DNA of 64,000 nucleotides from Marinobacter sp. ELB17 (GTDB taxonomy: Bacteria; Pseudomonadota; Gammaproteobacteria; Pseudomonadales; Oleiphilaceae), in contig NZ_AAXY01000004.1 of NCBI RefSeq assembly GCF_000169375.1, positions 186,001 through 250,000 of the forward strand. The letters are read 5' to 3'. Shown one piece after another: positions 1,269 to 20,654 of this stretch. Position 1 is the first letter of the stretch. Each line of letters starts with the position of its first letter. A program made the translations under genes and the position numbers. Under the pieces are notes generated by a model. The model did no database searches. It was not told where the DNA came from and worked only from the letters and a program-made list of their open reading frames with translations.

Positions 1269-1928
1269 TCAGCTCTTGTGCAGACCCTCTTCAACAGCCC
1301 ACACTGCGACTTCCACCCGCGACCGCAAATTGAGTTTTTTTAGCAAGTGCTTCACGTGCACTTTGACCGTGCCGTCGCTGATATCCAGCTTGCGGCCGAT
1401 CATCTTGTTAGACAGACCTTCGGCGATGAGATTCAGAATGTCTTTTTCTCTTGGCGTCAGGCTGTCGAAGTCTGGCCGCGCCGGCTGTTGCGATTTGTTA
1501 TTGCGCAGTGCGTCTGCCAGCAGGGAGGTAAGGCGTTCGCTGATGACCAGCTTTCCTACGGCGGCCTGGTGCAGCTGTTTAATCATATCCTCCGGTTCCA
1601 TATCCTTTAGAAGATAGCCGTCGGCACCAGCGCGTAATGCTTCAACCACATCGTCTTGCTGATCTGACACGGTGAACATAATAATGCGCGAGCTGATGTT
1701 GTGGGCTCGTAGCTGCCGCAAGGCTTCAATACCGCTCACATCCGGCATATTCAGATCCATCAGGATCAGGTCTGGCTCCAGTTCCAGAGCAATGCGCACG
1801 CCGTCCGTCGCATTGCTGGCCTCGCCTGCTACCTCAAGATCTGGTTCCATTTCGATCAGTTGCTTGATGCCCTTGCGCAATAAAGGGTGATCATCTATCA
1901 ACAATATGCTTGCAGGTGTATCAGACAT
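1269..1928 (-). CDS. narL: Nitrate/nitrite response regulator NarL
   Basis: This is a 219-residue cytoplasmic response regulator. The N-terminal receiver domain contains [17 protein letters not shown] and the phospho-acceptor aspartate in [10 protein letters not shown]. The C-terminal LuxR/GerE helix-turn-helix reads [19 protein letters not shown]. NarL activates nitrate respiration genes when NarX phosphorylates it. The frame can be extended to a TTG at 1958 that overlaps the narX stop. The ATG at 1928 is preferred because a purine-rich AAGAGAGAG sits just upstream and the receiver domain begins right after it. It lies immediately downstream of narX in the same transcription unit. Confidence 0.93.
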
Positions 1929-1954
1929 GGCTCTCTCTTTGTGTGGGTAAACCG

Positions 1955-3841
1955 TCAATTGGAATCCGCGGTTTGCGGGTTGTTTGCCGGTTTAACCGGG
2001 ATCAGGTTTCGGGCGTGGGGAATAAAATGCAAACTCACTTCCACCCCTCCTTGCGGATGATTAGCGACCGTTAGCTGGCCGCCCAGTGAGCGGGCGCGGT
2101 CTTGCATAATGATCATGCCGTAATGGTTCTCTGGCTGACCTGAATCGGGTAGCCCGCGACCGTTGTCACGGATTTTAGCCTTAACCTGCGGAGATTCGAA
2201 ACTGACGTCGACCCACACCGCTTCGGCCTTGCTGTGCTTTACCGCGTTGGCCAGCGCCTCGCGCACAACTTGAAGCGTGTGGATTTCTTCATTGGGTGAA
2301 AGCGTCTGTGCGGGCAGCTTGTACACCAGATTGACGGGTTTGGCCATGCGCCCGGAAAACTCGTGCACGGTCTGGCGCAGTGCGGCGCCAAGGTCCGGTG
2401 TGTCCAGCTTCAAGCGGAAGGTCGCTAACAGTTCCCGTAACTGACGATAGGCGCTGCTTAAACCGGTGCTCAGTTCGTCTAATACCGCGTCATAACCGGT
2501 TTTTTGTGGGCCGTCCATGTTCATTCTGCGCAATCGAGTAACCTGGATTTTAAGGTATGACAAAGACTGGGCCAGGGAATCGTGGAGCTCGCGGGCAATA
2601 ACGGTGCGTTCTTCGGCCAGCGTCCGCTGTTGTTCTTCGGTAATTTGCCGCTCCAGAAATATGGCTGTGGCCAGCTGATCGCTTAGAGTTTCCAACAGCC
2701 TTCGTGCGGTTTTAGACAACTCCTGTGAGGCCGGGTACCAGACTTCCAGTGTGCCCAGCAGTTGGCCGGGGGTGCGAATGGGCAGCAGCAAACGGCGCCC
2801 GTCATTGCCGGGCATTGGCAGCTCGTCGTGTTCCTCTTCGGTCACCAGGCAGGCGCTGCAGCTGTGATCGCGGCAGTAAAATGGGCGCACCATTGTAGCA
2901 GTAGTGACGGCTTGAACCGGCTCTGCGGAGGCTTTGTCGTGCAGATACAGATTGATAGGGCCTATGCCGAGCATCTGCTCCAGCTGCTTCAACATGGGCA
3001 ATGCACCATCGCACAAGCTGTGATTCGCAAACAGAGTGCGGCTGGACGAATGCAGTAATTCGAGCGCAGCGTGGCTTTTCTCCAGCTCTTCGGTTTTGGC
3101 TTTGACCTTGCTTTCCAGTTCGTAGTAGGTGAGCGCCAGCTCGCTGGTCATCTGGTCAAACGCCGACCCGAGCTGCGCCAGCTCATCAGAGCCGCTCAGC
3201 TCGGCCTTGCGGGAAAAATCTTGCTTGCTCACGGATTCGGCAATGCTCACCAGTTTTCGTAGCGGCCGCAGAACTCGCTTTTTCAAGTCCAGAAACAATG
3301 CCAATACGATCAGGATAGCGAACACCAGACTGATCACCTGTATCAGGTCCAGCAGGCGGATGCGGGCTTCGGTGCGATGTTCAAGCATAGACACCAGCAC
3401 ATCGACATTGTCCACGTAGCTTTGGGTGGTGTTAATCATAGAGCCTGTTAGCGGGTCTCCGGGACGGTGTTGTGCCAGCATGGGGCTAACGCTGGAGTCC
3501 CACTGGTTGACTACGTCGCGGTAGCGTTGCGCCAGCGGGTGATCGGTAGCAAGTGGTAATGACTGGATAATATCAGCGTGGACCAGGCGTTGATCGTAGC
3601 GGCTTACCATCTGGTCCAGGGCCTGGCGCCCATTGGCGGTATTCTGGTCTTCCAGTCGCGCTACCTGCGCCAACAACTGATACGCGCCCATACGCAGAGT
3701 GCCCGCCAGGTTGATGGCGGTGGCGTTACCGGCAATGCTTTGTGACACCCCTAGAGTGGCCCCCATACTGACAATGGCGGTGAGTACAACCGCACTGACG
3801 GCAATGGCAATCCGGTTAACGAGTGAGCTTCTGGAGGTCAT
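1955..3841 (-). CDS. narX: Nitrate/nitrite sensor histidine kinase NarX
   Basis: This is a 628-residue membrane sensor kinase. A first membrane segment lies at residues 8-33. The periplasmic part carries a P-box-like nitrate-binding helix, [20 protein letters not shown] (about 44-63). A second membrane segment follows at about 165-185, then a HAMP domain and a coiled coil. The central module has a cysteine cluster, CRDHSCSAC, as in NarX/NarQ. The kinase core has the HisKA_3 H-box [15 protein letters not shown] and an ATPase domain with RDNGRGLP. Known NarX proteins sense nitrate in the periplasm and phosphorylate NarL. The gene is divergent from narK, with a shared 156-base intergenic region that probably contains the control sites. 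Confidence 0.93.
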
Positions 3842-3997
3842 AGGGTTTTTTAGGTGGCGAGTGGGTATTGATTGAATGCCAACTACCTCTTTACGGATAG
3901 ACAGCTACCCACGAGGTTGTTAAGCCATCATAGTCTTTGACCGCCAGACAGGTAAAGTAAGACACTCAAAGTCACGTCTGCCAACAGGATAAAGCCG
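3842..3997. promoter_or_regulatory. Divergent narX/narK control region with a candidate NarL heptamer
   Basis: The 156-base gap between divergent narX and narK must hold both promoters. TACCTCT at 3884-3890 fits the NarL heptamer consensus TACYYMT. GTGGGTA (3861-3867) and TACCCAC (3907-3913) form an inverted pair that is close to the consensus. TTGATTGAATGCCA at 3868-3881 has one good FNR/DNR half-site only. This is pattern matching by eye; none of the sites is proven. Confidence 0.35.
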
Positions 3998-5323
3998 ATG
4001 AATGTGGGGCCAGGGCCGTCCGAAATCCGAGCTTTACAGCTATCGGTCGACAGCACCGAATCGGATGACGAACGGGGCGAAGAGCGCTATGCATCGCTGT
4101 TGTTAGTGTTACCACTAGCGCTGGCCGGTTTCATTATTGCGGCCGCCTGCTGGACCCTGTTTGCGGTGGTCGGCGTAACTCTGCGCAACGATTTTCAGCT
4201 GAGCGAGCTTCAGTTTGGCCTGTTATTGGCAATGCCGATGGCGGTGAGCGCATTGCTAGCGGTCCCGGCAGGACTGTTTGCGGGTATGTGGGGTGCCAGA
4301 AAAGTCATGTTGTGGTGCCTTACAGGCCTGGCGTTAAGTATGGCGCTAGTGTTCTTTGCCGATAGTTTTGCTGGTTATATTCTCGCCGCTGGTGGTTTAG
4401 GCCTGGCCGGTGGTTTTTACAGTGCGGGTCTGCAATTTGTAACCATTCATTGCCGGCCGCAACGGCTCGGGCTGGTGTTGGGTGTGTTTGGTGCGGGTAT
4501 TACCGGGGCCGATTTCAATTATTACTTGGTGCCACTTCTGCACCAGGCCTACTCCTGGCAAGGCGTTCCTTTGGCTTATGTCATTGTGCTGCTGCTGATA
4601 TTGGCACTGTTTCTGATGCTCACCGAGCCCGACGACCAAACCACACCTTTTGCGAGCAATGCCACGGCCTGGCGCAAATGTTGTGCGCCAGGAGTTTGGC
4701 ATTTGTGTGGTTATTTTTCTGTTATTGCCGGCAGTTTTTTCGCATTGGCCCTGTGGCTGCCGGATTACCTGTCAGCACGCTCGGGCCTGCCGGTAGGCCT
4801 GGGTGCGCATCAGGCTTTGTGGTTTGTATTGCCGGGCGCTCTGGCACAGATTGCGGGCGGTGCGCTGGCCGATCGTTTAGGTAGCAGCCGGGTCGTTATA
4901 TGGGCTTTGCTGTTGGCGCTGGCGGCGCTATTTGTGTTGTCTTACCCACCGATGACTCTCTCGGTACAAGGTGTTGGGCGCTCTTATCATCTAGAACTTT
5001 TGCTGCCGCGGGTGTGCGAAGGCGGTGTGATGATTATGCTCGGAGCAGCCCTGGGCTCAGCTATTGGTGCTCTGCAGCGGATGATTATTTTAGCCAGCCG
5101 TGAAGCGGCTGCGGTAGTGGCGGGCGTTTTGCTGCTGGGTGCGTTCGCTGTGGCATTCATGTTGCCCATTGTATTTGCCGCCATCAACGCCTGGCTGAAT
5201 GTGCGTTCTGCCGTGTTCATGCTGCTGTTCGTGATGCTGGTAGCCTGTATTTTATTGTTCGCCCGAAACACCCGGCGGCGTGAACGCCGGGAGCTGTCTT
5301 TCTCACAGTCTCGGGTGGTCTAG
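3998..5323 (+). CDS. narK: NarK-like major facilitator transporter, divergent
   Basis: This 441-residue protein is a 12-helix major facilitator transporter placed between narXL and narGHJI, where nitrate/nitrite transporters are usual. The overall pattern matches NarK: QLSELQFGLLLAMPMAVSAL in the first pair of helices, GVFGAGITGAD near residues 162-172, and a GALADRLGSSR loop. Several residues expected for nitrate binding are absent. The helix-2 arginine position of LLRLP is Ala88 here (LLAVP). The helix-8 arginine of LARPLGG is Gln284 (LAQIAGG). The glycine-rich nitrate signatures are degenerate. Position suggests nitrate or nitrite transport, but the residues leave the substrate open. The start has only a weak upstream ribosome site. 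Confidence 0.75.
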   Translation: MNVGPGPSEIRALQLSVDSTESDDERGEERYASLLLVLPLALAGFIIAAACWTLFAVVGVTLRNDFQLSELQFGLLLAMPMAVSALLAVPAGLFAGMWGARKVMLWCLTGLALSMALVFFADSFAGYILAAGGLGLAGGFYSAGLQFVTIHCRPQRLGLVLGVFGAGITGADFNYYLVPLLHQAYSWQGVPLAYVIVLLLILALFLMLTEPDDQTTPFASNATAWRKCCAPGVWHLCGYFSVIAGSFFALALWLPDYLSARSGLPVGLGAHQALWFVLPGALAQIAGGALADRLGSSRVVIWALLLALAALFVLSYPPMTLSVQGVGRSYHLELLLPRVCEGGVMIMLGAALGSAIGALQRMIILASREAAAVVAGVLLLGAFAVAFMLPIVFAAINAWLNVRSAVFMLLFVMLVACILLFARNTRRRERRELSFSQSRVV

Positions 5324-5447: not shown

Positions 5448-8400
5448 ATGAGTCATTTGATCGACAAGCTGAGCTACTTCAGCAAAAAGCGTGAATCCTT
5501 TTCTGGCGACCACGGCGAAACCCATACCGAAAACCGTGACTGGGAAGACAGCTATCGCCAGCGCTGGCAGCACGACAAAGTTGTGCGTTCCACCCACGGC
5601 GTAAACTGCACCGGCTCTTGCAGCTGGAAAATCTACGTTAAAAACGGTCTGGTAACCTGGGAAACCCAGCAAACCGATTACCCCCGTACCCGCCCGGATC
5701 TGCCGAACCACGAGCCCCGTGGTTGCCCTCGTGGCGCGAGCTATTCCTGGTACATGTACAGCGCTAACCGCCTGAAGTACCCACTGATGCGCAAGCATCT
5801 GATGCAGCTCTGGCGCGCCGCTCGCATCCAGTTTAACGACCCGGTCGATGCCTGGGCTTCCATCGTGGAAGATCCGAAGAAAACCGCTGAATACAAGCCA
5901 CGCCGCGGTATGGGCGGTTTTGTGCGTTCCGACTGGAACGAAGTGAACGAGCTGATTGCAGCGTCTAACGTTTATACCGCGAAAAAGCACGGCCCGGACC
6001 GCATCATCGGCTTCTCGCCGATTCCTGCGATGTCCATGGTGTCTTACGCGGCGGGCAGCCGTTACCTGTCGCTGATTGGTGGCACGTGCCTGAGCTTCTA
6101 CGACTGGTACTGCGACCTGCCGCCGGCTTCCCCACAAACCTGGGGCGAGCAAACCGACGTTCCCGAATCCGCAGACTGGTACAACTCCAGCTACATCATT
6201 GCCTGGGGCTCCAACGTTCCACAAACCCGTACTCCGGATGCCCACTTCTTTACCGAAGTGCGCTACAAAGGCACCAAGACCGTTGCCATTACCCCGGATT
6301 ACGCCGAAGTTGCCAAGTTGTCTGATGAGTGGCTGAACCCCAAGCAAGGCACCGACGCCGCGCTGGGTATGGCCATGGGCCACGTGATTCTGAAAGAGTT
6401 TCACGTTGATAACCCCAGCGCTTACTTTACCGATTATGTGCGCCGCTACACCGATATGCCGTACCTGGTGAAACTCGACAAAATGGAAGACGGCCGTTAT
6501 GTGCCGGGCCGGTTCCTGCGCGCCAGCGATCTGGTGGGCGGACTGGGCGAAGAGAACAACCCCGAGTGGAAAACCATTGCCATTGATGAAACCACCAACC
6601 AGCTAACCGCGCCAAACGGCTCCATTGGTTACCGCTGGGGTCAAAAAGGCAAGTGGAACCTGAAGCAAACTGCAAAAACAGAAGACGTGAACCTGCAGTT
6701 GTCGATGGTTAAAAAGCACGACGAAATTGTGGACGTTGCCTTCCCGTATTTCGGCGGTATCAAGCACGAGCACTTCAAATCCGTTGAGATCAGCGACACC
6801 CTGACCCACAAACTGGGCAGCCGTAAAATTGAACTGGCAGACGGCGAGGAAGCTTTAGTCGTCACCGTGTACGACCTGATGATCGCCAACTACGGCATCA
6901 GCCGTGGCCTGGGTGAAGACGACGGTGCTACCGACTACGACCAGATCAAGCCGTACACACCTGCCTGGCAAGAAAAGATCACCGGCGTACCCGCCCACAA
7001 AGTGACCCGCATTGCCCGTGAATTCGCCGAGACTGCCCACAAAACCAATGGTCGCTCCATGATCATTGTGGGTGCCGGTATGAATCACTGGTACCACATG
7101 GACATGAACTACCGTGCGCTGATCAATATGCTGATCATGTGTGGTTGTGTCGGCCAGAGCGGTGGCGGTTGGGCCCACTATGTAGGTCAGGAAAAACTGC
7201 GCCCACAGACCGGCTGGCAGCCTTTGGCCTTCGGCCTGGATTGGCAGCGCCCGCCACGCCAGATGAACGGCACATCCTTCTTCTACGCCCACTCTGGCCA
7301 GTGGCGCTACGAGAAACTGGATGTGAGCGAAATCTTGTCGCCGCTGGCAGACAAGTCCAAATTCGGTGGCAGCCTGATCGATTACAACGTACGCGCCGAG
7401 CGTATGGGCTGGTTGCCGTCTGCGCCGCAGTTTAACCGTAACCCGCTGGGCATTGCCGCCGAAGCGGAAAGCGCCGGTATGGATGTGCCAGCGTACGTGA
7501 CTCAGTCCTTGAAGGACGGCTCACTGGCGTTTGCCTCGGAAGATCCGGAAGCCCCGGAAAACCACCCGCGCAATATGTTCATCTGGCGTTCCAACCTGTT
7601 GGGTTCTTCCGGCAAGGGCCACGAGTACATGCTTAAGTACCTGCTGGGTACGACGAGTGGTTTGCAGGGCAAAGACCTGGGTCACGATGGCGGCGTTAAG
7701 CCGCAGGAAGTGAAATGGCACGACGAAGCGCCCGAAGGCAAACTGGATCTGCTGGTGACTCTGGACTTCCGTATGTCCACCACCTGCCTGTATTCCGACA
7801 TCGTTCTGCCTACCGCTACCTGGTATGAAAAAGACGACCTGAATACCTCGGATATGCACCCGTTCATTCACCCGCTAACCGCGGCTACGGATCCGGCGTG
7901 GGAATCCCGCAGTGACTGGGAAATCTACAAAGGCATTGCCAAGGCATTCTCCAAAGCGTCTGAAGGCCATCTGGGTGTCCAGAAAGACGTGGTTACGGTG
8001 CCGTTGTTGCACGACGCGCCCGCTGAGCTGGGTCAGCCGTTTGATGTAAAAGATTGGAAAAAAGGCGAATGTGAACTGATTCCGGGCAAAACCGCGCCTA
8101 ACTTCATGACGGTTGAGCGGGACTACCCGAACACCTACGCGCGCTTCACGTCCCTTGGCCCTCTGTTGGACAAGCTGGGTAACGGCGGCAAAGGCATCAA
8201 CTGGAACACCGAAAAAGAAGTGGAGTTCCTGGGTCAGTTGAACCACAAACACCTTGACGGCGCCAATGCGGGTCGACCGAAAATTAACACGGCCATTAAT
8301 GCATGTGAAGTGATTCTGAGCCTGGCTCCGGAAACCAACGGCCAGGTCGCCGTGAAAGCCTGGGCTGCGCTGTCTGAATTCACCGGGCTGGATCACACGC

Positions 8401-9191
8401 ACCTGGCACTGAACAAAGAAGACGAAAAAATCCGCTTCCGCGACATCGTAGCGCAGCCGCGCAAAATCATCTCCAGCCCGACCTGGTCTGGCCTGGAAGA
8501 CGAGCATGTGTCCTACAGCGCCGGCTACACCAACGTGCACGAGCTGATTCCCTGGCGCACGCTGACCGGTCGCCAGCAGTTCTATCAAGACCACGAGTGG
8601 ATGCGCGCCTTTGGCGAAAGCCTGCTGGTGTATCGCCCGCCCATCAACACCAAAGCGGCGGCACCGCTGCTGAACGCCAAGCCCAACGGCAACCCGGAGA
8701 AGGCGTTGAACTTCCTTACACCGCACCAGAAGTGGGGTATACACAGTACCTACAGCGACAACCTGCTGATGCTGACCCTGTCTCGTGGCGGCCCCATTGT
8801 GTGGCTGAGTGAAGACGACGCCCGCGATATAGGTGTGGAAGACAACGACTGGATAGAAGTGTTCAACGCCAACGGGTCTTTGTCAGCGCGGGCGGTGGTT
8901 AGCCAGCGGGTGATGCCGGGCATGGTGATGATGTACCACGCTCAGGAGCGCATTGTGAATATTCCCGGCTCGGAAATTACCGGCAGCCGCGGTGGTATTC
9001 ACAACTCGGTTACCCGGGTGTGCCCGAAGCCCACTCACATGATTGGTGGCTATGCCCAGTTCTCGTACGGCTTCAACTACTACGGCACCGTGGGTTCCAA
9101 CCGCGACGAGTTCGTTGTAGTGCGCAAAATGAAGAACGTTGACTGGCTTGATGGCGAGGGCAGCGACACTGTTCAGGAGAGTGTGAAATGA
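5448..9191 (+). CDS. narG: Respiratory nitrate reductase alpha subunit NarG
   Basis: This 1247-residue protein is the catalytic subunit of the membrane-bound nitrate reductase. It reduces nitrate to nitrite at a Mo-bis-MGD centre on the cytoplasmic side. The FS0 cluster motif HGVNCTGSCSWKIYVKNG starts with His50 and Cys54, matching His49 and Cys53 of the E. coli enzyme. The WYCDLPP block contains Asp223, which corresponds to the Mo-ligating aspartate. Length and motifs are full and normal for the family, and there is no Tat leader beyond the short N-terminal sequence. It overlaps narH by four bases (ATGA), so translation is probably coupled. MoaA, needed for its cofactor, is encoded downstream. 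Confidence 0.98.
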   Translation: MSHLIDKLSYFSKKRESFSGDHGETHTENRDWEDSYRQRWQHDKVVRSTHGVNCTGSCSWKIYVKNGLVTWETQQTDYPRTRPDLPNHEPRGCPRGASYSWYMYSANRLKYPLMRKHLMQLWRAARIQFNDPVDAWASIVEDPKKTAEYKPRRGMGGFVRSDWNEVNELIAASNVYTAKKHGPDRIIGFSPIPAMSMVSYAAGSRYLSLIGGTCLSFYDWYCDLPPASPQTWGEQTDVPESADWYNSSYIIAWGSNVPQTRTPDAHFFTEVRYKGTKTVAITPDYAEVAKLSDEWLNPKQGTDAALGMAMGHVILKEFHVDNPSAYFTDYVRRYTDMPYLVKLDKMEDGRYVPGRFLRASDLVGGLGEENNPEWKTIAIDETTNQLTAPNGSIGYRWGQKGKWNLKQTAKTEDVNLQLSMVKKHDEIVDVAFPYFGGIKHEHFKSVEISDTLTHKLGSRKIELADGEEALVVTVYDLMIANYGISRGLGEDDGATDYDQIKPYTPAWQEKITGVPAHKVTRIAREFAETAHKTNGRSMIIVGAGMNHWYHMDMNYRALINMLIMCGCVGQSGGGWAHYVGQEKLRPQTGWQPLAFGLDWQRPPRQMNGTSFFYAHSGQWRYEKLDVSEILSPLADKSKFGGSLIDYNVRAERMGWLPSAPQFNRNPLGIAAEAESAGMDVPAYVTQSLKDGSLAFASEDPEAPENHPRNMFIWRSNLLGSSGKGHEYMLKYLLGTTSGLQGKDLGHDGGVKPQEVKWHDEAPEGKLDLLVTLDFRMSTTCLYSDIVLPTATWYEKDDLNTSDMHPFIHPLTAATDPAWESRSDWEIYKGIAKAFSKASEGHLGVQKDVVTVPLLHDAPAELGQPFDVKDWKKGECELIPGKTAPNFMTVERDYPNTYARFTSLGPLLDKLGNGGKGINWNTEKEVEFLGQLNHKHLDGANAGRPKINTAINACEVILSLAPETNGQVAVKAWAALSEFTGLDHTHLALNKEDEKIRFRDIVAQPRKIISSPTWSGLEDEHVSYSAGYTNVHELIPWRTLTGRQQFYQDHEWMRAFGESLLVYRPPINTKAAAPLLNAKPNGNPEKALNFLTPHQKWGIHSTYSDNLLMLTLSRGGPIVWLSEDDARDIGVEDNDWIEVFNANGSLSARAVVSQRVMPGMVMMYHAQERIVNIPGSEITGSRGGIHNSVTRVCPKPTHMIGGYAQFSYGFNYYGTVGSNRDEFVVVRKMKNVDWLDGEGSDTVQESVK

Positions 9192-10747
9192 AAATCCGTT
9201 CCCAAGTAGGCATGGTGCTGAACCTGGATAAGTGCATTGGTTGCCACACCTGTTCAGTGACCTGTAAAAACGTATGGACCAGCCGTGAAGGCATGGAGTA
9301 CGCCTGGTTCAACAACGTTGAAACCAAGCCTGGTATTGGTTACCCGAAAGAGTGGGAAAACCAGGACAAGTGGAAAGGCGGTTGGCTGCGCGACCCTAGC
9401 GGCAAAATCCGCCCCCGCATCGGTGGCAAGTTCCGGGTGTTGGCGAACATTTTCGCCAACCCCGATCTGCCGGAAATTGACGACTACTACGAACCGTTCG
9501 ATTTCGACTATCAGCACCTGCACACCGCTGGCGACAGCAAACACCAGCCGGTTGCACGGCCGCGCTCGCTGATTACCGGCAAGCGTATGCAGAAAATTGA
9601 ATGGGGCCCAAACTGGGAAGAAATCCTGGGCACCGAGTTTGCCAAGCGTCGCAAGGACAAAAACTTCGATCAGATTCAGGCCGACATCTACGGCCAGTTT
9701 GAAAGCACATTCATGATGTACCTGCCGCGTCTGTGCGAGCACTGTCTGAACCCCACCTGTGTGGCCAGCTGCCCCAGCGGCGCTATTTACAAGCGGGAAG
9801 AAGACGGAATCGTGCTGATTGACCAGGACAAATGTCGCGGCTGGCGCATGTGTGTATCTGGCTGCCCGTACAAGAAAATCTACTTCAACTGGAAAACCGG
9901 TAAATCCGAGAAATGCATTTTCTGCTACCCACGGATTGAAGCCGGTATGCCCACCGTGTGTTCGGAAACCTGCGTAGGCCGCATTCGCTACCTGGGCGTG
10001 CTGCTGTATGACGCTGACCGGATCGAAGAAGTGGCCAGTACCCCCGGCGAGCACGAGTTGTACGAGAAGCAGCTGGAAATTTTCCTGGACCCGTTTGATC
10101 CGAAAGTGATCGAGCAGGCAACGAAAGACGGCGTGCCGATGAACGTGATCGACGCGGCCCAGCGCAGCCCGGTGTACAAGATGGCGGTTGAGTGGAAACT
10201 GGCCCTGCCGTTGCACCCGGAATACCGCACTCTGCCCATGGTGTGGTACGTGCCGCCCCTGAGTCCGATTCAGTCAGCTGCCGAAGCTGGCCAGGTCGAA
10301 TTTAATGGCGTACTGCCAAAAATCGAAAGCCTGCGCATTCCGGTGAAATACTTGGCCAACCTGCTCACCGCCGGTAACGAAAAGCCCATCGTACGTGCGC
10401 TAAAACGCATCATGGCCATGCGTCTGTACAAGCGTGCTGAAACCGTAGACGGCGTGGAAGACCTGCGGGCACTGGAAGAAGTCGGGCTGACCAAAGCTCA
10501 GGCGGATGAGATGTACCGCTATCTGGCCATTGCCAATTACGAAGACCGTTTCGTGATTCCCACCGGTCATCGCGAAATGGCCAAAGAAGCTTTTCCCGAG
10601 CGTGGCGGCTGTGGTTTCAGCTTTGGTGACGGCTGTGGTGGCAGCACCAGTGAATTCAACATGTTCGGCGGCAAAAGCCAGACCACCACCATGGTGCAAA
10701 AATTGACCACGGTGAAACAGGTTGACCCGAAACAGCTGCAGGATTGA
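9188..10747 (+). CDS. narH: Respiratory nitrate reductase beta subunit NarH
   Basis: This is the 519-residue iron-sulfur subunit that passes electrons from NarI to NarG. Four cysteine groups are visible: CIGCHTCSVTC near the N-terminus, CEHCLNPTCVASCP, CRGWRMCVSGCPYKK and CIFCYPRIEAG with the following CSETCVGR. The Trp in CRGWRMC replaces one cysteine and is the known mark of the [3Fe-4S] cluster in NarH. The start codon overlaps the narG stop, and narJ follows after ten bases. Length is normal. Confidence 0.98.
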   Translation: MKIRSQVGMVLNLDKCIGCHTCSVTCKNVWTSREGMEYAWFNNVETKPGIGYPKEWENQDKWKGGWLRDPSGKIRPRIGGKFRVLANIFANPDLPEIDDYYEPFDFDYQHLHTAGDSKHQPVARPRSLITGKRMQKIEWGPNWEEILGTEFAKRRKDKNFDQIQADIYGQFESTFMMYLPRLCEHCLNPTCVASCPSGAIYKREEDGIVLIDQDKCRGWRMCVSGCPYKKIYFNWKTGKSEKCIFCYPRIEAGMPTVCSETCVGRIRYLGVLLYDADRIEEVASTPGEHELYEKQLEIFLDPFDPKVIEQATKDGVPMNVIDAAQRSPVYKMAVEWKLALPLHPEYRTLPMVWYVPPLSPIQSAAEAGQVEFNGVLPKIESLRIPVKYLANLLTAGNEKPIVRALKRIMAMRLYKRAETVDGVEDLRALEEVGLTKAQADEMYRYLAIANYEDRFVIPTGHREMAKEAFPERGGCGFSFGDGCGGSTSEFNMFGGKSQTTTMVQKLTTVKQVDPKQLQD

Positions 10748-10757
10748 GGAGCAGATT

Positions 10758-11510
10758 ATGAAAATTCTAAAAGTGATGGCGCTGTTGCTGGAATACCCGA
10801 ACGCCGATCTGCAGCGTGGCCGCGATGAGCTGACGGCTGCGGTGCTGGAAGACAGCCGCTTGCCGCGCAAAAACAAAGAGCAGCTGCTGCGCTGCATTGA
10901 CATGCTCTGCGACGGCAATCTGCTGGACCTGCAGGAAAGCTACGTAGCCACCTTTGACCGGGGCCGCGCCACGTCCTTGCTGTTGTTCGAACACGTGCAC
11001 GGCGAATCCCGCGATCGCGGGCAGGCGATGGTAGACCTGATGGAGCAATACAAAACCAACGGTCTGGAGATTGATGCCCGCGAACTGCCGGATTACCTGC
11101 CGCTGTTCATGGAGTATCTGTCTACCCGGCCATGGGAAGAGATCAAAAACTGGCTGGAAGATATTCACCACATTTTGGGCTTGCTGGGTGAGCGTCTGTA
11201 CCAGCGTGAAAGCGTGTACCACGGAATTATGGATTCGCTGCTTGAACTGTCTGGCCGCAAAACCGACCGCAAGGAACTGGCGAAGATTGTGGCCTCGGAA
11301 GAGCGCGACGACACCCCCGAAGCGCTGGACAAAGTGTGGGAAGAGGAAATGGTTAAGTTTGTGGATGATCAGGGCAGCTCCTGCAGCACCGGTGGTGTAG
11401 TAGGTCAGCGCCGCCGTGAATTGGAGCAAACCCAGACCATTCACTTGAGCGATCAGCTGATGGCGGATGTCACACCTCGCCCGGCTCAACAACCGGTGAG
11501 TAACGCCTGA
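10758..11510 (+). CDS. narJ: Nitrate reductase molybdenum cofactor assembly chaperone NarJ
   Basis: This 250-residue cytoplasmic chaperone belongs to the NarJ/TorD family. It holds apo-NarGH until the Mo cofactor is inserted and the complex docks on NarI. The family pattern is seen in LLEYPNADLQRGRDEL at the N-terminus, LLLFEHVHGESRDRGQAM in the middle, and DYLPLFMEYLSTRP. An upstream in-frame start at 10722 would overlap narH. The ATG at 10758 is preferred because GAGGAG precedes it closely. narI follows after 20 bases, so it sits in the narGHJI operon. The tail after residue 210 is Ser/Cys-rich and poorly conserved. Confidence 0.96.
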   Translation: MKILKVMALLLEYPNADLQRGRDELTAAVLEDSRLPRKNKEQLLRCIDMLCDGNLLDLQESYVATFDRGRATSLLLFEHVHGESRDRGQAMVDLMEQYKTNGLEIDARELPDYLPLFMEYLSTRPWEEIKNWLEDIHHILGLLGERLYQRESVYHGIMDSLLELSGRKTDRKELAKIVASEERDDTPEALDKVWEEEMVKFVDDQGSSCSTGGVVGQRRRELEQTQTIHLSDQLMADVTPRPAQQPVSNA

Positions 11511-11530
11511 GCGCGTAGGAGGAGAGAACA

Positions 11531-12208
11531 ATGTCCTATTTAAATACACTGGTGTTCGGAATTTATCCTTACATTGCCATTCTGATTATGTTGGTTGGTA
11601 CCTGGGCCCGCTACGATAACAGCCAGTTTACCTGGCGCGCCCAGTCCAGCCAGATTTTAAGCAAGAAAAACATGGTGTGGGCCAGCGTGATGTTCCACGT
11701 GGGCGTATTGGTGATCTTCTTTGGCCACTTGGTGGGCTTGCTGACGCCGCACTTTGTGTATGAGCCCTTTATGAGCGCCGGCACCAAACAGGTAATGGCG
11801 ATTGTCGTGGGCGGCATCGCCGGAATCATGGCGTTGATCGGTGGCATCGCGTTGGCGGTTCGCCGCCTGACCAATCCGCGGGTTCAAGCCAGTAGCAGCT
11901 TCTCTGACAATATGATCATTGTGATACTGATGGTTCAGGTTGCGTTGGGCATGCTGACTATTTACCCCACATTGGGCCATTTGGATGGCAGCACCATGTT
12001 GCTGCTGGCATCTTGGGCCCAGGGCATTCTGACCTTTCAGGGTGATGCCGCATCGCATATTGCCGGTGTGCATTGGATCTACAAGACTCATATTTTCTTG
12101 GGTCTGACCATCTTTGTGCTGTTCCCGTTTACCCGCCTGGTGCACATGCTGAGCGTGCCACTGGAGTATTTCGGCCGCAGGTACCAAGTGGTGCGTAAGC
12201 GGGTTTAG
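11531..12208 (+). CDS. narI: Respiratory nitrate reductase gamma subunit NarI (cytochrome b)
   Basis: This is the 225-residue membrane anchor and quinol oxidase subunit, with five predicted membrane helices. Histidine pairs suitable for the two b hemes are present: MFHVGVLVIFFGHLVGLL in helix 2, and GVHWIYKTHIFLG with TRLVHML near the end. NarI takes electrons from quinol at the periplasmic side and passes them to NarH. The start has the ribosome site AGGAGGAG. The last cytoplasmic residues are basic, as usual. It is followed after 24 bases by the isomerase gene, so the operon continues. Confidence 0.97.
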   Translation: MSYLNTLVFGIYPYIAILIMLVGTWARYDNSQFTWRAQSSQILSKKNMVWASVMFHVGVLVIFFGHLVGLLTPHFVYEPFMSAGTKQVMAIVVGGIAGIMALIGGIALAVRRLTNPRVQASSSFSDNMIIVILMVQVALGMLTIYPTLGHLDGSTMLLLASWAQGILTFQGDAASHIAGVHWIYKTHIFLGLTIFVLFPFTRLVHMLSVPLEYFGRRYQVVRKRV

Positions 12209-13100: not shown

Positions 13101-13203
13101 TGCTAATGGGTTACCTCCGAAGAGGGAGCGATTTTTACAGTTAATCCCTCTAGTATTCATACATAGATTATGAATGCATGAACACGCTAAAGAGGATGCC
13201 GCC

Positions 13204-13971
13204 ATGGCGCTGATACAGGCTGCCGATACTCGCACGCAGGACACCCCCATGAACTACTCAAAACCGGTTCTGGTTGCGGTTAAGCCTGGTGACCACGAAG
13301 ACAGCCTGGCGCTTTTGCGTAGCCACGCCATGTTCAGCGCTCTGGCAGAAGACGACCTGCAAGAGCTTCTGCATCATGCCCGCCGCTTGCGGTTGGGCCA
13401 TCACCAGTTGCTGTATCGCCAGGACATGCCGGCCCACCACTTCTTCTTTGTGTTGTCCGGCCGTTTGCGCTTGTACCGGCTGGATGCATCAGGCATCGAC
13501 CGCACTCTGGACAGCATCGCGCCAGGCGACTGCATTGCCGAAGTGATGATATACGCCGATCCCGCCCGCTACGCCTGTTACGCCGAAGCCCTGAAAACCA
13601 GCGAAGTGCTGATGATTCCCGTGAAAGCGTATCAGGACTTGCTGGACACCAATCACAGCTATACCCAGGCCGCTTTGCGCCATTACGCCATGCGCGCAGT
13701 GACTCGTTTTCACGATCTCGAAATCATGACCGTGCAGAGCGCCCGCGATCGGCTGATTCGCTATTTAGTAGATTTGTTGCCAGAAGGCAGCGAGCAGGGT
13801 GGTGAAGTGGAATTGCCACTGCCCAAATGCCTGGTGGCATCGCGCCTTGCCATGCAGCCGGAAACTTTTTCGCGCATTCTGGCCGACCTGAAATCCAACG
13901 GCCTGGTGCGGGTAAATCGCAGCCGGGTGTTTATTTCCGACCCGAGCAAGCTGATTCAGATCAGCCAATAA
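13204..13971 (+). CDS. Crp/Fnr-family regulator, DNR-like (NO-responsive type)
   Basis: This 255-residue regulator has an N-terminal cyclic-nucleotide-type sensor domain and a C-terminal winged helix. The recognition helix reads PETFSRILADLKSNGLVRV, with the E-x2-S-R pattern that reads TTGAT half-sites in FNR/DNR proteins. There is no N-terminal cysteine cluster, so it is not an FNR/ANR oxygen sensor. LLRSHAMFSALAEDDLQELL resembles DNR, which senses NO through heme and activates denitrification genes. The reading frame opens at 13174, but the ATG at 13204 has AAAGAGG upstream. Placement between the nar and nos genes supports control of both. Heme binding is inferred. Confidence 0.85.
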   Translation: MALIQAADTRTQDTPMNYSKPVLVAVKPGDHEDSLALLRSHAMFSALAEDDLQELLHHARRLRLGHHQLLYRQDMPAHHFFFVLSGRLRLYRLDASGIDRTLDSIAPGDCIAEVMIYADPARYACYAEALKTSEVLMIPVKAYQDLLDTNHSYTQAALRHYAMRAVTRFHDLEIMTVQSARDRLIRYLVDLLPEGSEQGGEVELPLPKCLVASRLAMQPETFSRILADLKSNGLVRVNRSRVFISDPSKLIQISQ

Positions 13972-14003
13972 TTCGCCCTCCACCTTCACAGGAGGATTTT
14001 GCC

Positions 14004-14402
14004 ATGAGTGAACAGCCAACACCGCGAAAGCAACGCCCGCTGATCTATTCCTGCTCTGGCTGCTCCGATGTAGCACAGCTGGCAAACAATGCAGCGGTTG
14101 CTCTCGACCACGCCGGCGACTTCGAAATGTCGTGCATCTCTGGCGTTGGTGGCCAGGTACCAGCATTGGTGAGAGTGGCCCAATCCGGTCGCTCTATCAC
14201 CGTGATCGACGGCTGCCCGCTGCAATGCGCCAAGGCCTGCCTGGCGAACGTAGGCGTGGCACCCGACCGACATATATTGTTGTATGAATACGGTTTCAAA
14301 AAACACTATGGGCAAAGCTACGGTGAAGAGGCTGTTGCCGAAGTTTGCGCCGAAGTGCGCGAGCTCGGCAAACCACTGATCGCCCGCCAGACGGGACACT
14401 AG
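14004..14402 (+). CDS. DGC-domain putative zinc-binding protein
   Basis: This small 132-residue cytoplasmic protein contains a DGC domain. The cysteine pattern is clear: YSCSGCSD near residue 17, MSCISGVGG in the middle, and VIDGCPLQCAKACL about residues 71-84, which includes the name-giving Asp-Gly-Cys. The family is described as a putative metal-binding fold and its biochemical role is unknown. An AGGAGG ribosome site precedes the ATG at 14004; the longer open frame from 13827 overlaps the regulator gene and is not credible. It lies between the DNR-like regulator and nosR, as in several denitrifiers, which suggests a link to anaerobic respiration or metal supply to N-oxide reductases. Confidence 0.85.
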   Translation: MSEQPTPRKQRPLIYSCSGCSDVAQLANNAAVALDHAGDFEMSCISGVGGQVPALVRVAQSGRSITVIDGCPLQCAKACLANVGVAPDRHILLYEYGFKKHYGQSYGEEAVAEVCAEVRELGKPLIARQTGH

Positions 14403-14967: not shown

Positions 14968-17133
14968 GTGAGTATCCGTTTCAGCAGTATCGTAAATCTG
15001 ATTGTAATGGCGTTGGTACTGGCACTGCTCGCAGGTGTCACCCATGTAAAAGCGGAACCCGTTGACCAATACCAGCCGGTTGCCGGTCGCCAAGTGATCA
15101 CGCAAACCCTGCCCCAGGTAACCGAAGTACGCCTCCGCGATAGCAATCGCGCCATTGGCGAGCTCTTCGCCGGCGAAGAGCTGTTGGGCTACACCTACCA
15201 AAGCCTCGATTTCGTGCAAACGCCCGCCTATTCGGGCAAACCCCTGAACATTCAGGTATTGATGAATACCGACGGTGAAATCCTTAAAACCCGCGTGATT
15301 CATCACTCCGAGCCGATTTTGCTGGTCGGTATCCCCGAGTACAAACTGCACGACTTTACCGACCAGTACACCGGTCTGAAAGCTGATCAGCGGGTTACTG
15401 TGGGCGGCAACACGAACGAGCGCAAGGTGGCAGTAGACGGCTTGTCCGGCGCGACCGTTACGGTGATGGTGGTGAACGAAGTCATCATGCGTTCGGCTCA
15501 CAGAGTCGGCGTAGAACTCGGCTTGGTGGAAGATGCGGGCGTAAAGAGACCACCCATTGCGGAAGTTAATAACGAGCAGTTTCAGCAAGCCAACTGGCAG
15601 CAACTGACGGACGATGGCTCCATTCGCCGCCTGCTGCTGACCCGTGGCCAAGTGGATGACTCATTTAAAGGCACCGACGCGGAAGGCGTAGAGGCCGCCA
15701 CTCCCGATCAGCGTGAAGACGCATTGATAGACCTGTATGCAGCCTATCTGAACGCCCCCACCATTGGTCGCAATCTGCTGGGTGAAAGCCAGTACGAATG
15801 GTTGAACTCTCTGCTGAAAGAAGGCGAACACGCCATTGCGGTGATGGCCAGCGGCTCCTATTCGTTCAAGGGCTCCGGCTATGTGCGCGGCGGCATTTTC
15901 GACCGCATTCAGATTCGCCAGTTTGGTGACACCTTCAACTTCCGCGATCTCGATTTTTATCGTTTAAGCGATGTATACAGCGAGGGAATGCCCGACTTTT
16001 CCGAAATGGCGATCTTCATTATCCGCCAACAGTACAACGTTGACCCGGGCACGCCCTGGACCCTCGAACTGACCGTAAAGCGCCAGACCGGCCCGCTGGA
16101 CAGCAAATTCCAAGTGTTCCCGCTGGAGTACCAGCTACCCGAGCAGTATTACACCCGTGCGGACGTTGTGGTCAGCCAGGACGAATGGCTGGAAACCCAA
16201 CTCATGTGGGTGCAGGTGTGGTACCAGAAACAGTTCCAGATTGTTGTGCTGGGCGGGGGCATATTGGTGCTGCTGTTTGTCCTGTTTTTTCAGGACTGGC
16301 TGGTAAAGCGGCCCAATTTGACCCGCTGGATTCGCCATGGCTTCCTCACCTACACCCTGTTTTTTATTGGTTGGTACGCCCTGGGTCAGTTATCCATCGT
16401 GAACGTGCTGACGTTTGTGCACAGCTTCATGTCTGGCTTTAGCTGGCAGACGTTTCTGATCGACCCGATCATGTTCATATTGTGGGCAGTGGTGGCGGGC
16501 ATTGTGTTGCTTTGGGGCCGCGCGGTCTATTGCGGTTGGCTGTGCCCGTTTGGTGCGCTGCAAGAGTTGCTGAATGAAATCGCCCGCAAGCTAAAAATAC
16601 CTCAGTACAACGTGCCGTTTGCCGTGCACGAACGCCTATGGGCCATCAAGTACATCATTCTGCTGGTGCTGTTCGGGGTGTCGCTGGAATCCATGGCGAT
16701 GGCAGAAAGGCTGGCGGAAATTGAACCTTTCAAAACGTCCATCACTCTGCATTTCGCCCGCTCCTGGCCGTTTGTGCTTTACGCGGTGGTGTTGCTGGTG
16801 ATCAACCTGTTCACTCGCAAGGTTTACTGCCGCTACCTGTGCCCGCTGGGCGCCGCGCTGGCGCTGCCCACCAAACTGCGGGTATTCGATTGGCTCAAGC
16901 GCCGCAAAGAATGTGGCACCCCCTGCCGCCTGTGCGAAAAAGAGTGCGAGGTACAGGCCATTCACCCAGACGGCACCATCAATTTCATGGAATGCCACTA
17001 CTGCCTTGACTGCCAGGTGACTTATTTCGACGACAACAAGTGCCCGCCGTTGATTGTGAAGCATCGCGGCAAGCGCCGTGGCCAAAATTCGCCGGGGCGC
17101 CCGGAACAGATTCCAGTCGTCGAAGTAAAATGA
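14968..17133 (+). CDS. nosR: NosR, membrane flavo-iron-sulfur protein for N2O reduction
   Basis: NosR supplies electrons to NosZ and is needed for its activity and expression. This 721-residue protein starts with a signal anchor (about residues 8-28). A periplasmic FMN-binding domain contains DGLSGATVTV, in which Thr163 is the expected covalent flavin site. Several membrane helices follow from about residue 420, with two CxxxCP-type motifs (CGWLCPFGAL and CRYLCPLGAA). The C-terminus carries two ferredoxin-like cysteine groups, CGTPCRLCEKEC and CHYCLDCQ. A GTG at 14968 is chosen because the ATG just upstream is followed at once by a stop. It heads the nosRZDFYL cluster. No ApbE/NosX flavin transferase gene is in the window. 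Confidence 0.96.
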   Translation: MSIRFSSIVNLIVMALVLALLAGVTHVKAEPVDQYQPVAGRQVITQTLPQVTEVRLRDSNRAIGELFAGEELLGYTYQSLDFVQTPAYSGKPLNIQVLMNTDGEILKTRVIHHSEPILLVGIPEYKLHDFTDQYTGLKADQRVTVGGNTNERKVAVDGLSGATVTVMVVNEVIMRSAHRVGVELGLVEDAGVKRPPIAEVNNEQFQQANWQQLTDDGSIRRLLLTRGQVDDSFKGTDAEGVEAATPDQREDALIDLYAAYLNAPTIGRNLLGESQYEWLNSLLKEGEHAIAVMASGSYSFKGSGYVRGGIFDRIQIRQFGDTFNFRDLDFYRLSDVYSEGMPDFSEMAIFIIRQQYNVDPGTPWTLELTVKRQTGPLDSKFQVFPLEYQLPEQYYTRADVVVSQDEWLETQLMWVQVWYQKQFQIVVLGGGILVLLFVLFFQDWLVKRPNLTRWIRHGFLTYTLFFIGWYALGQLSIVNVLTFVHSFMSGFSWQTFLIDPIMFILWAVVAGIVLLWGRAVYCGWLCPFGALQELLNEIARKLKIPQYNVPFAVHERLWAIKYIILLVLFGVSLESMAMAERLAEIEPFKTSITLHFARSWPFVLYAVVLLVINLFTRKVYCRYLCPLGAALALPTKLRVFDWLKRRKECGTPCRLCEKECEVQAIHPDGTINFMECHYCLDCQVTYFDDNKCPPLIVKHRGKRRGQNSPGRPEQIPVVEVK

Positions 17134-17243
17134 AAGGCAGTGAAGTGACGGACATTGAATAAATCAGAGCCTTAACGGCCAAAAAAAAGCAGTGCCATAA
17201 CGAAAAAAGAACAACCCCTAAAACTGAAACGGAGCTGAGCATC

Positions 17244-19142
17244 ATGAGCAAAGACCATGAGCAAGATCATAAAGAACGGGCGAAAACGGAACATCTTGGC
17301 CTGAGTCGCCGGCGTTTTCTGGGTGCCACCGCGGCGGCTGGTGTCGCTGGTGTAGCTGGCCTTGGCGGCGCAGTCATGAGCCGTGAGGCTTTTGCAGCCG
17401 CAGCCAAAGAGGCACGCAACAACATTCACGTGGGCCCGGGCGAGCTGGATGAGTACTACGGTTTCTGGAGTGGTGGTCACCAAGGCGAAGTGCGAGTAAT
17501 GGGTATACCGTCTATGCGCGAGCTGATGCGTATTCCGGTGTTCAATGTGGATTCGGCGACTGGATGGGGCCTGACCAACGAGAGCAAAGACGTACTCGGC
17601 CACGACAACACGTTTTTGAACGGCGACTGTCACCACCCGCACATCTCCATGACCGACGGCCGTTACGATGGCAAGTATCTGTTCATCAACGACAAAGCTA
17701 ACACCCGTGTGGCCCGTATCCGTCTGGACATCATGAAGTGCGATAAGATTACCCACATTCCTAACGTGCAGGCCATTCACGGTTTGCGCCTGCAGAAAGT
17801 GCCTTACACAAAATACGTGTTCTGCAACGCAGAATATGTGATTCCGCACCCGAACGATGGCAGCGATTTCTCGATGGAGAACAGCTACACCATGTTTAAT
17901 GCCCTGGATGCGGAAACCATGGAAGTGGCCTGGCAGGTGATTGTCGACGGTAACCTGGACAACACTGACGCTGACTACACTGGAAAATACGCGGCCTCTA
18001 GCTGCTACAACTCCGAGAAAGCGAAAGATCTGGCCGGTACCATGCGTAACGACCGCGACTGGGTGGTGGTGTTTAACGTTGAACGCATCGAGCAAGCGGT
18101 TAAAAACGGCGACTTCAAAACCCTGGGCGATTCCAAAGTGCCCGTGGTGGATGGCCGCAGCAAATCCCCGTTGACCCGTTACATTCCGGTGCCGAAGAAT
18201 CCGCACGGCGTGAACACGTCACCGGATGGCAAGTACTTCATTGCTGCCGGCAAGCTGTCGCCAACCTGTTCGGTGATTGCCATCGACAAGCTGGACGACG
18301 TGTTTGACGACAAAATCGAACTGCGTGACGTGATTGTCGCCGAACCGGAGTTGGGCCTTGGACCCCTTCACACCACGTACGATGGCCGCGGTAACGCCTA
18401 CACCACGTTGTTTATCGACAGCCAGGTGGTGAAGTGGAACATTGCAGATGCCATCAAGCATTACAACGGTGAAGACGTAAACTACCTGCGCCAGAAGCTG
18501 GATGTGCATTATCAGCCAGGCCACAACCACGCGTCGTTGACGGAATCCCGCGATGCCGATGGCAAGTGGCTGGTGGTGTTGTCGAAGTTCTCGAAAGACC
18601 GTTTCCTGCCGGTTGGGCCTTTGCACCCGGAGAACGATCAGCTGATCGATATTTCTGGCGATGAAATGAAGCTGGTTCACGATGGCCCGGCCTTCGCCGA
18701 ACCACACGATTGCATTATGGTGCGTCGTGATCAGATCAAAACCAAGAAAATCTATACCCGTGACGATCCGTACTTCGCCAGTGCCCGCGCCCAGGCCGAG
18801 AAAGACGGTGTCACGCTGGAAGGCGATAACAAGATCATCCGCGACGGCAAAAAAGTGCGCGTTTATATGACGTCGGTGGCGCCTATTTACGGTACAACCG
18901 AGTTCACGGTGAAGCAGGGTGACGAGGTGACGGTGTATGTGACTAACCTGGACACCATTGAAGACGTTACCCACGGCTTTTCGGTGGTGAACCACGGTGT
19001 GAGCATGGAAATCAGCCCGCAGCAGACGTCGTCGGTGACCTTCGTGGCTGATAAGCCAGGTGTGCATTGGTACTACTGCAACTGGTTCTGTCACGCTCTG
19101 CATATGGAGATGACGGGGCGGATGTTGGTCGAAAAGGCTTAA
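17244..19142 (+). CDS. nosZ: Nitrous oxide reductase NosZ (clade I, Tat-exported)
   Basis: This 632-residue periplasmic enzyme reduces N2O to N2. The N-terminus has a twin-arginine leader, [16 protein letters not shown], which places it with clade I enzymes. A seven-bladed propeller domain holds the CuZ centre; His130, His131 and His133 in CHHPHISM are among the ligands. The C-terminal cupredoxin has the CuA motif [12 protein letters not shown], with two Cys, His and Met in the right spacing, plus DVTHGFSV. Length and motifs are complete. The start has GGAGCTGAG upstream. It is followed by a 213-base gap with a large folded element before nosD. Confidence 0.98.
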
Positions 19143-19210
19143 TTTCGTATTTGGGCTGGAGTCCTTTATACAGGGCTCCGGCTTTTTACGGTATTTCGGA
19201 GAAGCGAATC

Positions 19211-19310
19211 AAAAGAAGAAGGCTTTCCAAAACACGCTCAAGCCCGTCCATGGGACGCTTGAGCTCCGCCATCCATGGCTCCGCACAGTTTTGGAAAGCC
19301 TTTTTCTTTT
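19211..19310. repeat. Composite palindromic element between nosZ and nosD
   Basis: A 23-base arm (19211-19233) is inverted at 19288-19310 with one mismatch. The outer stem encloses two smaller hairpins: GCTCAAGC paired with GCTTGAGC, whose top is GTCC-ATG-GGAC, and GCCAT-CC-ATGGC. The right arm ends in a T-rich run, so it can terminate plus-strand transcription; the left arm is A-rich and mirrors this on the other strand. The size and nested symmetry look like a REP- or MITE-like dispersed repeat. Only one copy was seen in this window. Confidence 0.65.
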
Positions 19311-19355
19311 GTTTTGCCAGAGTTTGGCGGCTTTTACCTTACTGAGTAATGATTG

Positions 19356-20654
19356 ATGCACCGACTTTTACGCCTAGTGGTGGCTCTTACCGTCGCTTTG
19401 CTACCGCTAACCGCACAAGCGGACATCCAGCAACAGCTGGATGCGCTGGAACCGCGGGCGGTTTTTGAGCTGCCGCCTGAACAGGTTTCACCGATCGTTA
19501 TCCGGGTGGCGAATGTGACGGTTCGCTGCCATGCCGATACGGTGATTAATGGCGGAGGCGAGGGCAATGCGGTGCATATTTTGGCTGCCGGCGTTACGTT
19601 CAGTGGCTGCACGGTGCGTAACTGGGGCTCGGATTTGAATGAGCTGGATGCGGGGATTTTTGTGGCCCGTGAGGCGCGCGGCGTTACGGTTGCGAACAAC
19701 AACTTGCAGGGTCCGGCGTTTGGGGTGTGGCTGGATGCTACGCCGGATGCGACGGTTCTTAGCAATGTGATTCGTGGCGATGCCAGTATGCGTTCCAATG
19801 ACCGGGGCAACGGGATTCATTTGTTCAACACTCAGGGCGCGTTGATTGAAGGCAATGACATCCGTCAGACCCGCGATGCGATTTATATTGAAACCTCCAA
19901 CAACAACCGCATTCGCAATAATGTGATGGTCGATTTGCGCTATGGCATTCATTACATGTATTCGATGGACAACCTGCTGGAAAACAATGTTACCCGTGGC
20001 ACGCGCACGGGTTATGCGTTGATGCAGAGCAAGCGGCTGACGGTGCTGAATAACCGTTCCGAGAACGATGAGAATTACGGCATTTTGATGAATTTTATTA
20101 CCCAGTCCGAGCTGCGGGGCAATGTGGTTACCGGTGTGTCGAAGGGGCAGTTTGCCGGGGCAGCGATGTTGGGTGCCGAGGGTAAGGCGGTGTTTATTTA
20201 CAACTCTCTGTACAACACCTTTACCGATAACGTGTTTGCCAACAGCAATATTGGCATTCACTTAACCGCCGGCTCGGAAGACAATACAATGTTCAACAAT
20301 GCCTTCGTGAATAACCAGCGCCAGGTGAAGTATGTGGCCACCCGCACCCAGGAGTGGTCGAAAGATGGCGTGGGTAATTACTGGAGTGACTACCTGGGCT
20401 GGGATCGTAACCAGGACGGCACCGGTGACGTTCCTTACGAGCCTAATGACAACGTCGATCGTCTTCTATGGACCTATCCGGAAGCCAAGGTGCTGATGTT
20501 CAGCCCGGCGGTGGATACCCTGCGCAGGGTGCAGGATGCGTTTCCGGTGATCAAGGCCGCCGGGGTTCAGGATTCCCATCCACTGATGTATCCACCTGAG
20601 CCTGAACGTGTTCCATCGGCTGTTTCTAACCCGAATTCTGCGGAGCCGAAATGA
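19356..20654 (+). CDS. nosD: NosD, periplasmic CuZ-maturation protein
   Basis: This 432-residue periplasmic protein starts with a signal peptide, HRLLRLVVALTVALLPLTAQA. The rest is a right-handed beta-helix of the CASH/pectate-lyase type, seen as repeated Asn-rich turns such as IEGNDIRQTRDAIYIETSNN and LLENNVTRGTRTG. NosD works with the NosFY transporter to deliver sulfur for the CuZ cluster of NosZ. The frame includes a TTG at 19353 directly before the ATG; the ATG at 19356 is preferred. Its stop overlaps the nosF start by four bases. Length is typical. Confidence 0.95.
   Translation: MHRLLRLVVALTVALLPLTAQADIQQQLDALEPRAVFELPPEQVSPIVIRVANVTVRCHADTVINGGGEGNAVHILAAGVTFSGCTVRNWGSDLNELDAGIFVAREARGVTVANNNLQGPAFGVWLDATPDATVLSNVIRGDASMRSNDRGNGIHLFNTQGALIEGNDIRQTRDAIYIETSNNNRIRNNVMVDLRYGIHYMYSMDNLLENNVTRGTRTGYALMQSKRLTVLNNRSENDENYGILMNFITQSELRGNVVTGVSKGQFAGAAMLGAEGKAVFIYNSLYNTFTDNVFANSNIGIHLTAGSEDNTMFNNAFVNNQRQVKYVATRTQEWSKDGVGNYWSDYLGWDRNQDGTGDVPYEPNDNVDRLLWTYPEAKVLMFSPAVDTLRRVQDAFPVIKAAGVQDSHPLMYPPEPERVPSAVSNPNSAEPK

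Follow-up and report, generated by a model that had tools for sequence, protein, structure and literature searches.

The stretch of DNA analysed here (the window; 64,000 nucleotides) originates from the genus Marinobacter and carries, between narXL and narGHJI, a gene for a protein of the major facilitator superfamily (MFS) that lacks the two nitrate-binding arginines of NarK and is termed arginine-less below. On the plus strand the MFS gene is followed by narGHJI, then by genes encoding a PpiC-type isomerase, a regulator of the Crp/Fnr type and a DGC-domain protein, and finally by nosRZDFY. The features of the locus are the following:

1269-1958, minus strand: narL, response regulator (NF007935, 335.9 bits, above the cut-off of 250)
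1955-3841, minus strand: narX, sensor kinase, divergent (NF007896, 462.7 bits, below the cut-off of 578)
3842-3997, no strand: intergenic region common to narX and the arginine-less gene (weak)
3998-5323, plus strand: arginine-less NarK1-type MFS protein, 441 amino acids (MFS_1, TIGR00886, tree clade among NarK1)
5448-12208, plus strand: narGHJI, nitrate reductase, downstream of the arginine-less gene (TIGR01580, TIGR01660, TIGR00684 and TIGR00351, all above their cut-offs)
13174-13971, plus strand: Crp/Fnr-type regulator, presumably dnr (Pfam cNMP_binding and HTH_Crp_2)
14968-22410, plus strand: nosRZDFY (nosR, nosZ and nosD by NF046105, TIGR04244 and TIGR04247, above their cut-offs)

The name dnr is our assumption from the position of the gene, and nosF and nosY are likewise presumed from position. 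The reading frame at 3998-5323 is open and intact. Its product belongs to the MFS by its match to Pfam MFS_1 (1.9e-26; 93.3 bits against a gathering score of 33.4), and matches NCBIfam TIGR00886 with 71.7 bits (5.9e-20), below the cut-off of 311.7. A named relative is Marinobacter gelidimuriae (92% identity over the window protein); matches on plasmids are all under 60% identity. The NarX of the window holds a 14-residue segment that we take to be P-box-like. A small DGC-domain protein (PF08859) is encoded at 13986-14402, between the regulator and nosR; in some relatives (L141, L145, L151) such a protein likewise adjoins the regulator or nar genes. The intergenic region 3842-3997 contains a single, weak NarL-type heptamer (TACCTCT) 114 bases before the start of the arginine-less gene, and no FNR-like palindrome was found in it; an FNR-like TTGAGG(A/T)TAGTCAA lies upstream of the gene in 10 of 26 loci, the window not among them. 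This promoter footprint is too weak to serve as evidence.

According to PMC4432589, seven residues of NarK make up its nitrate site: F49, R89, F147, N175, Y263, F267 and R305. The Marinobacter NarK1 at locus L049 served as the first bridge for the site alignment, and later NarK of E. coli K-12 itself (locus L213), which is the reference for the site numbering used here. In the alignment of the window protein with E. coli NarK, all seven residues are altered:

4142-4144, plus strand: Ala49 codon, matching F49 of NarK (alignment)
4259-4261, plus strand: Ala88 codon (GCG), matching R89 of NarK, helix 2 (alignment)
4418-4420, plus strand: Tyr141 codon, matching F147 of NarK (alignment)
4499-4501, plus strand: Ile168 codon, matching N175 of NarK, signature 1 (alignment)
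4715-4717, plus strand: Phe240 codon, matching Y263 of NarK (alignment)
4727-4729, plus strand: Ala244 codon, matching F267 of NarK (alignment)
4847-4849, plus strand: Gln284 codon (CAG), matching R305 of NarK, helix 8 (alignment)

An earlier note, made from the letters of this DNA, had claimed that the NarK arginines are replaced by Ala88 and Gln284, and had proposed a full alignment with NarK; in that alignment Ala88 falls at R89 and Gln284 at R305, no arginine stands at either site, and five further site residues are altered. The note had also described a GAGNVGAA-type signature weakened to GAGITGAD and a second signature that is not visible. Both descriptions hold: helix 5 reads GAGITGAD in the window protein versus GAGNVGAA or GAGNVGSA in most Marinobacter NarK1, and in helix 11 the glycine-rich signature, GMVGVIGGLGGFTLP in the NarK1 at L136, has become GVLLLGAFAVAFMLP. 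The Asp172 of the first motif is a feature of the window copy only, the other Marinobacter family members aligned having Gly. The hinge glycine (NarK G268) is retained as G245. The note's remaining statement, that the gene is intact and in the narK position, agrees with the open frame and with E. coli K-12, where narK lies in the same place between narX and narG.

For E. coli NarK, PMC4432589 reports that Y263F and R305K abolish transport, that Y263 is strictly conserved, and that nitrate relieves the repulsion between the two arginines. As both arginines are gone from the window protein, this arginine-repulsion mechanism cannot apply to it, and, to the extent that sequence allows such a verdict, its residues rule out the canonical nitrate/nitrite mechanism. 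No direct PDB match was obtained for the window protein at E 0.01, and the structure predicted from the window protein and L040 alone had a pLDDT of 41.5 and was not used; the pocket was read from the alignment.

The substitutions extend well beyond the window. Searches covered 124 genomes of the genus, 390 of the order, 201 of family f36 (same order as Marinobacter) and 369 of the class, and residues were read among the matches listed, at most 30 per search; 59 of 60 loci were kept for this reading, the class-search locus L193 having no usable reading frame. Ala88 and Gln284 are invariant in all 29 aligned sequences, and the 54 distinct sequences from Marinobacter all carry Ala at site 89, Phe at 263 and Gln at 305 (both sets contain the window protein). 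With such invariance the substitutions are not due to chance, and the loss of the arginines is a conserved family trait, not a quirk of one gene. In f36, 45 of the 201 genomes have a match of the arginine-less kind (at least 422 bits; one partial). The 30 f36 genomes read, aligned as 31 rows with one gene entered twice, carry Ala (17) or Ser (13) at site 89 and Gln at site 305 throughout; they retain F49, Y263 (Tyr in every row) and Phe or Tyr at site 267, and their copies occupy the same genomic place as the Marinobacter gene.

Arginine-bearing relatives give the opposite picture. All seven site residues are present in 24 of 24 full NarK1 (22 from Marinobacter, two from other families), and 39 further NarK1 have R89 without exception and R305 in 37. 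The two exceptions, at L133 (genome G250; Trp) and L204 (Ser), lost the second arginine only. Among the 30 loci listed from the class search, one is the window gene, and the other 28 with a readable frame have R89 in 28 and R305 in 27. TIGR00886 scores are 60-125 bits in six arginine-less proteins versus 192-303 bits in four arginine-bearing NarKs; the low score was dropped as proof of non-membership, since these four also fall below the cut-off.

The window protein is nevertheless kin of NarK1 by sequence, through its TIGR00886 match and its place in a 68-row tree, where the 34 arginine-less rows group together as a single clade amid the NarK1 rows (support 100/99; 100% of 200 bootstrap trees). 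Five of the seven site columns were excluded from this tree, and the row nearest to the clade is L125, a NarK1 with both arginines. In two genomes, G250 and G294 (L143, L150), a NarK1 followed by a NarK2 fills the same narX-narG gap, and these NarK1s are placed near the arginine-less clade, which suggests a change in place. The tree came with the warning that long branches were joined, so that the case for a single origin draws on the tree in combination with the shared position. An ancestral NarK1 in the narX-narG gap would thus have lost both arginines and the signature-1 Asn, probably once and before the split of the Marinobacter and f36 copies, and the lineage would then have become a clade of its own. 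In two Marinobacter genomes, NarK1 and NarK2 are fused in one frame (L047:6113-8845, 910 amino acids; L055:2368-5034, 888 amino acids), like the fusion described for Paracoccus denitrificans.

The arginine-less gene is under purifying selection and is not dying. The dN/dS ratio is 0.11-0.16 in six pairs formed by the window gene and three close relatives, and 0.044-0.080 in three pairs among the narG-lacking genomes G005, G079 and G112; distant pairs reach 0.30 at dS of 1.2-1.6, near saturation. Such selection indicates some function. Among the arginine-less proteins of Marinobacter, conservation of the seven pocket columns exceeds that of columns drawn at random (P 0.0027; random columns not matched for membrane position), and the same test in f36 is not significant (P 0.06). 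The arginine-less proteins diverge faster than NarK1, with a mean identity of 63% versus 80%, lower in 120 of 120 pairs from 16 genomes. A truncated NarK1 of 332-336 amino acids, with the N-terminal half missing and His at site 305, is present in the genome of the window (L002:1450-2448; C72, about 115.8-116.8 kb) and in two of the window gene's close relatives (L067:6008-7006, L068:6397-7407); it has a dN/dS of 0.36-0.44 in three pairs and is probably a NarK1 in decay.

Among the 124 genomes of the genus, the arginine-less gene is found in 92 (three matches partial: G102, G106, G119), narG in 83 and nosZ in 86, the gene being told from NarK1 by a score gap of 434 versus 283 bits. It accompanies narG in 82 of the 83 narG-bearing genomes. 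Ten genomes carry it without narG, all ten with nosZ; three have nosZ without the gene (completeness 58-82%), and 28 have none of the three. The one genome with narG and without the gene is G062 (L252, G062:C133), where narX and narG are about 430 bases apart and no match to the gene occurs in 12 kb; nar clusters can thus do without it. Mapped onto a tree that comprises 58 of the 92 genes, nine of the ten from narG-lacking genomes among them, the narG state changes three times (two of the changes forced), so the narG-lacking genomes stem from few events.

The order narLX, arginine-less gene, dnr, nosRZDFY (narLX divergent) is found in eight of the ten narG-lacking genomes. G088 has narLX, the gene and dnr, with nosZ on a separate contig, and in G119 the contig ends within the arginine-less gene; in G086 a DGC gene follows dnr, and nosY was not seen in the stretch examined. 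The narG-lacking Marinobacter loci L072-L075 and L144-L148 keep narXL adjoining dnr, and mostly nos too. A NapA match was obtained in one of the ten genomes (G035, in two pieces, each below the cut-off). At 1e-30, one NarK-family match was found in G032 and none in G005, G015 and G035, so that no NarK partner is left in these three. Within the stretches examined, and with NirS, NorB and NirK motifs that we presume to be diagnostic, NorB motifs lie near the locus in G032, G079 and G112, where NirS motifs were not seen; a NirS motif was found in G017 only, and the stretches of G009 showed neither NirS nor NorB, so that absence from the stretches examined says little.

Of the Marinobacter rows 79 of 80, and of the f36 rows 33 of 34, have a divergent narX next to the gene. 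Downstream, the 80 Marinobacter rows show narG 63 times and dnr 16 times; all these counts contain repeats of one gene. The P-box-like segment of NarX is kept in nine of nine narG-lacking genomes read (G119 not among them). In f36, arginine-bearing NarK types lie on the far side of narL at L139, L140 and L142, and none within the stretch examined at L141. The idea that the genome of the window might be without another narK, for which the earlier note had suggested a search, was rejected, as two arginine-bearing NarKs are encoded at C72:117601-118857 and C72:155060-156421, about 34 and 71 kb away.

The arginine-less protein is neither a canonical nitrate/nitrite porter nor the product of a dying gene. 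Taken as a whole, the data lead us to lean towards a re-specialised NarK1 paralogue, most likely a carrier of a less charged, non-nitrate solute. The protein has retained the MFS fold and the hinge position G268. We infer that it most likely still works as an alternating-access carrier for a different solute, neither nitrate nor nitrite, that would be uncharged or weakly charged. In the Marinobacter branch a wider, uncharged pocket is expected, with Ala in place of F49, R89 and F267, Gln in place of R305 and Phe in place of Y263. The solute may be needed or made during N-oxide respiration, with the gene kept together with narXL, and the non-nitrate role is probably tied to NarXL and N-oxide respiration. 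A non-nitrate role as such is favoured by the replaced pocket, by the loss of NarK transport in Y263F and R305K, by the two other NarKs of the genome, and by selection where narG is absent. The earlier note had left three options, namely transport of another anion, nitrate handling by different residues, and a function apart from nitrate transport. The last is the one favoured here, and another anion is possible, but both arginines are gone and no observation points to it. Counting against the preferred reading, the presence of the gene in nearly every narG-bearing genome of the genus would fit a nitrate-linked role too, and the f36 proteins keep F49, Y263 and an aromatic residue at 267 and gave no significant pocket test. 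The dN/dS of up to 0.30 in distant pairs, the small number of events behind the narG-lacking genomes, the joined long branches of the tree, the narX-narG placement, which may be an inheritance given narK at that site in E. coli, and the lack of the gene in G062 weigh on the same side.

A nitrate-linked role would mean that the protein still moves nitrate, nitrite or nitrous acid, either by way of other residues or by serving a NarK as partner subunit, and the position in the nar operon, the co-occurrence with narG and the site residues kept in f36 are consistent with it; according to PMC5217062, moreover, NarK1 and NarK2 of P. denitrificans are mutually dependent. However, all seven site residues are altered in the window protein while nearly all NarK1 read keep both arginines, the gene persists without narG, and the three genomes without a NarK-family match (G035 among them, with its NapA match) offer no partner, all of which makes this reading unlikely. 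A decaying former narK1 without function, to which the faster divergence, the three partial matches and the lack of the gene in G062 might point, is highly improbable: the frame is open, dN/dS is 0.04-0.16 in pairs with dS below 1, the new pocket residues are invariant in a gene present in 92 of 124 genomes, and a real remnant in the same genomes has 0.36-0.44. The relic hypothesis was rejected on dN/dS and conservation.

UhpC is the MFS receptor of the UhpABC system, a sugar-phosphate receptor that works with the kinase UhpB. By analogy, the arginine-less protein might be a receptor instead of a carrier, i.e. a non-transporting NarK-fold partner of NarX, with a possible parallel to UhpC as a transporter-like protein adjoining a sensor kinase, a likeness drawn from gene neighbourhood. 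The divergent narX beside the gene, also where narG is absent, and the P-box-like segment kept in the narG-lacking genomes are in line with this. Yet narK of E. coli sits in the same place, so the narX-narG placement may be merely inherited; NarX has a P-box-like segment of its own, and G062 carries narX beside narG without the gene, so that we consider a receptor unlikely, if slightly more probable than a nitrate-linked role.

Relative to known systems, the re-specialised paralogue favoured here belongs to the same family as the NarK1-type porters (NNP family, MFS), among which its clade nests, but it lacks their two arginines, the Asn of signature 1 and the glycine signature of helix 11. With E. 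coli NarK it shares the gene order narL-narX, narK, narG (narLX divergent) and G268, and it differs in each of the seven nitrate-site residues. For M. hydrocarbonoclasticus, the available part of PMC6152468 describes a narLXKGHJV cluster in which the gene at the same place is called narK, is grouped with nitrate/nitrite transporters and is proposed to share a transcript with narGHJV; missing arginines are not mentioned in that part. Given the presence of the gene in 92 of 124 genomes of the genus, this narK is probably an orthologue of the window gene. An arginine-less NarK paralogue was not described in the titles and abstract openings of the literature surveyed.

The narK of the Marinobacter nar operon is thus very likely not the nitrate porter, and models of nitrate entry built on narK would point to the wrong gene. 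More tentatively, a NarK-fold protein that became either a receptor in the membrane or the carrier of some solute not yet recognised may work with NarXL in N-oxide respiration as a component of the denitrification cluster that has gone unseen because it is annotated narK, and that might be needed even by NO/N2O respirers without nitrate reductase. The clade represents a natural experiment in which the site was swapped residue by residue while selection was maintained, and many of these genomes also encode relatives with the arginines for comparison; it indicates a membrane function common to strains with and without nitrate reductase.
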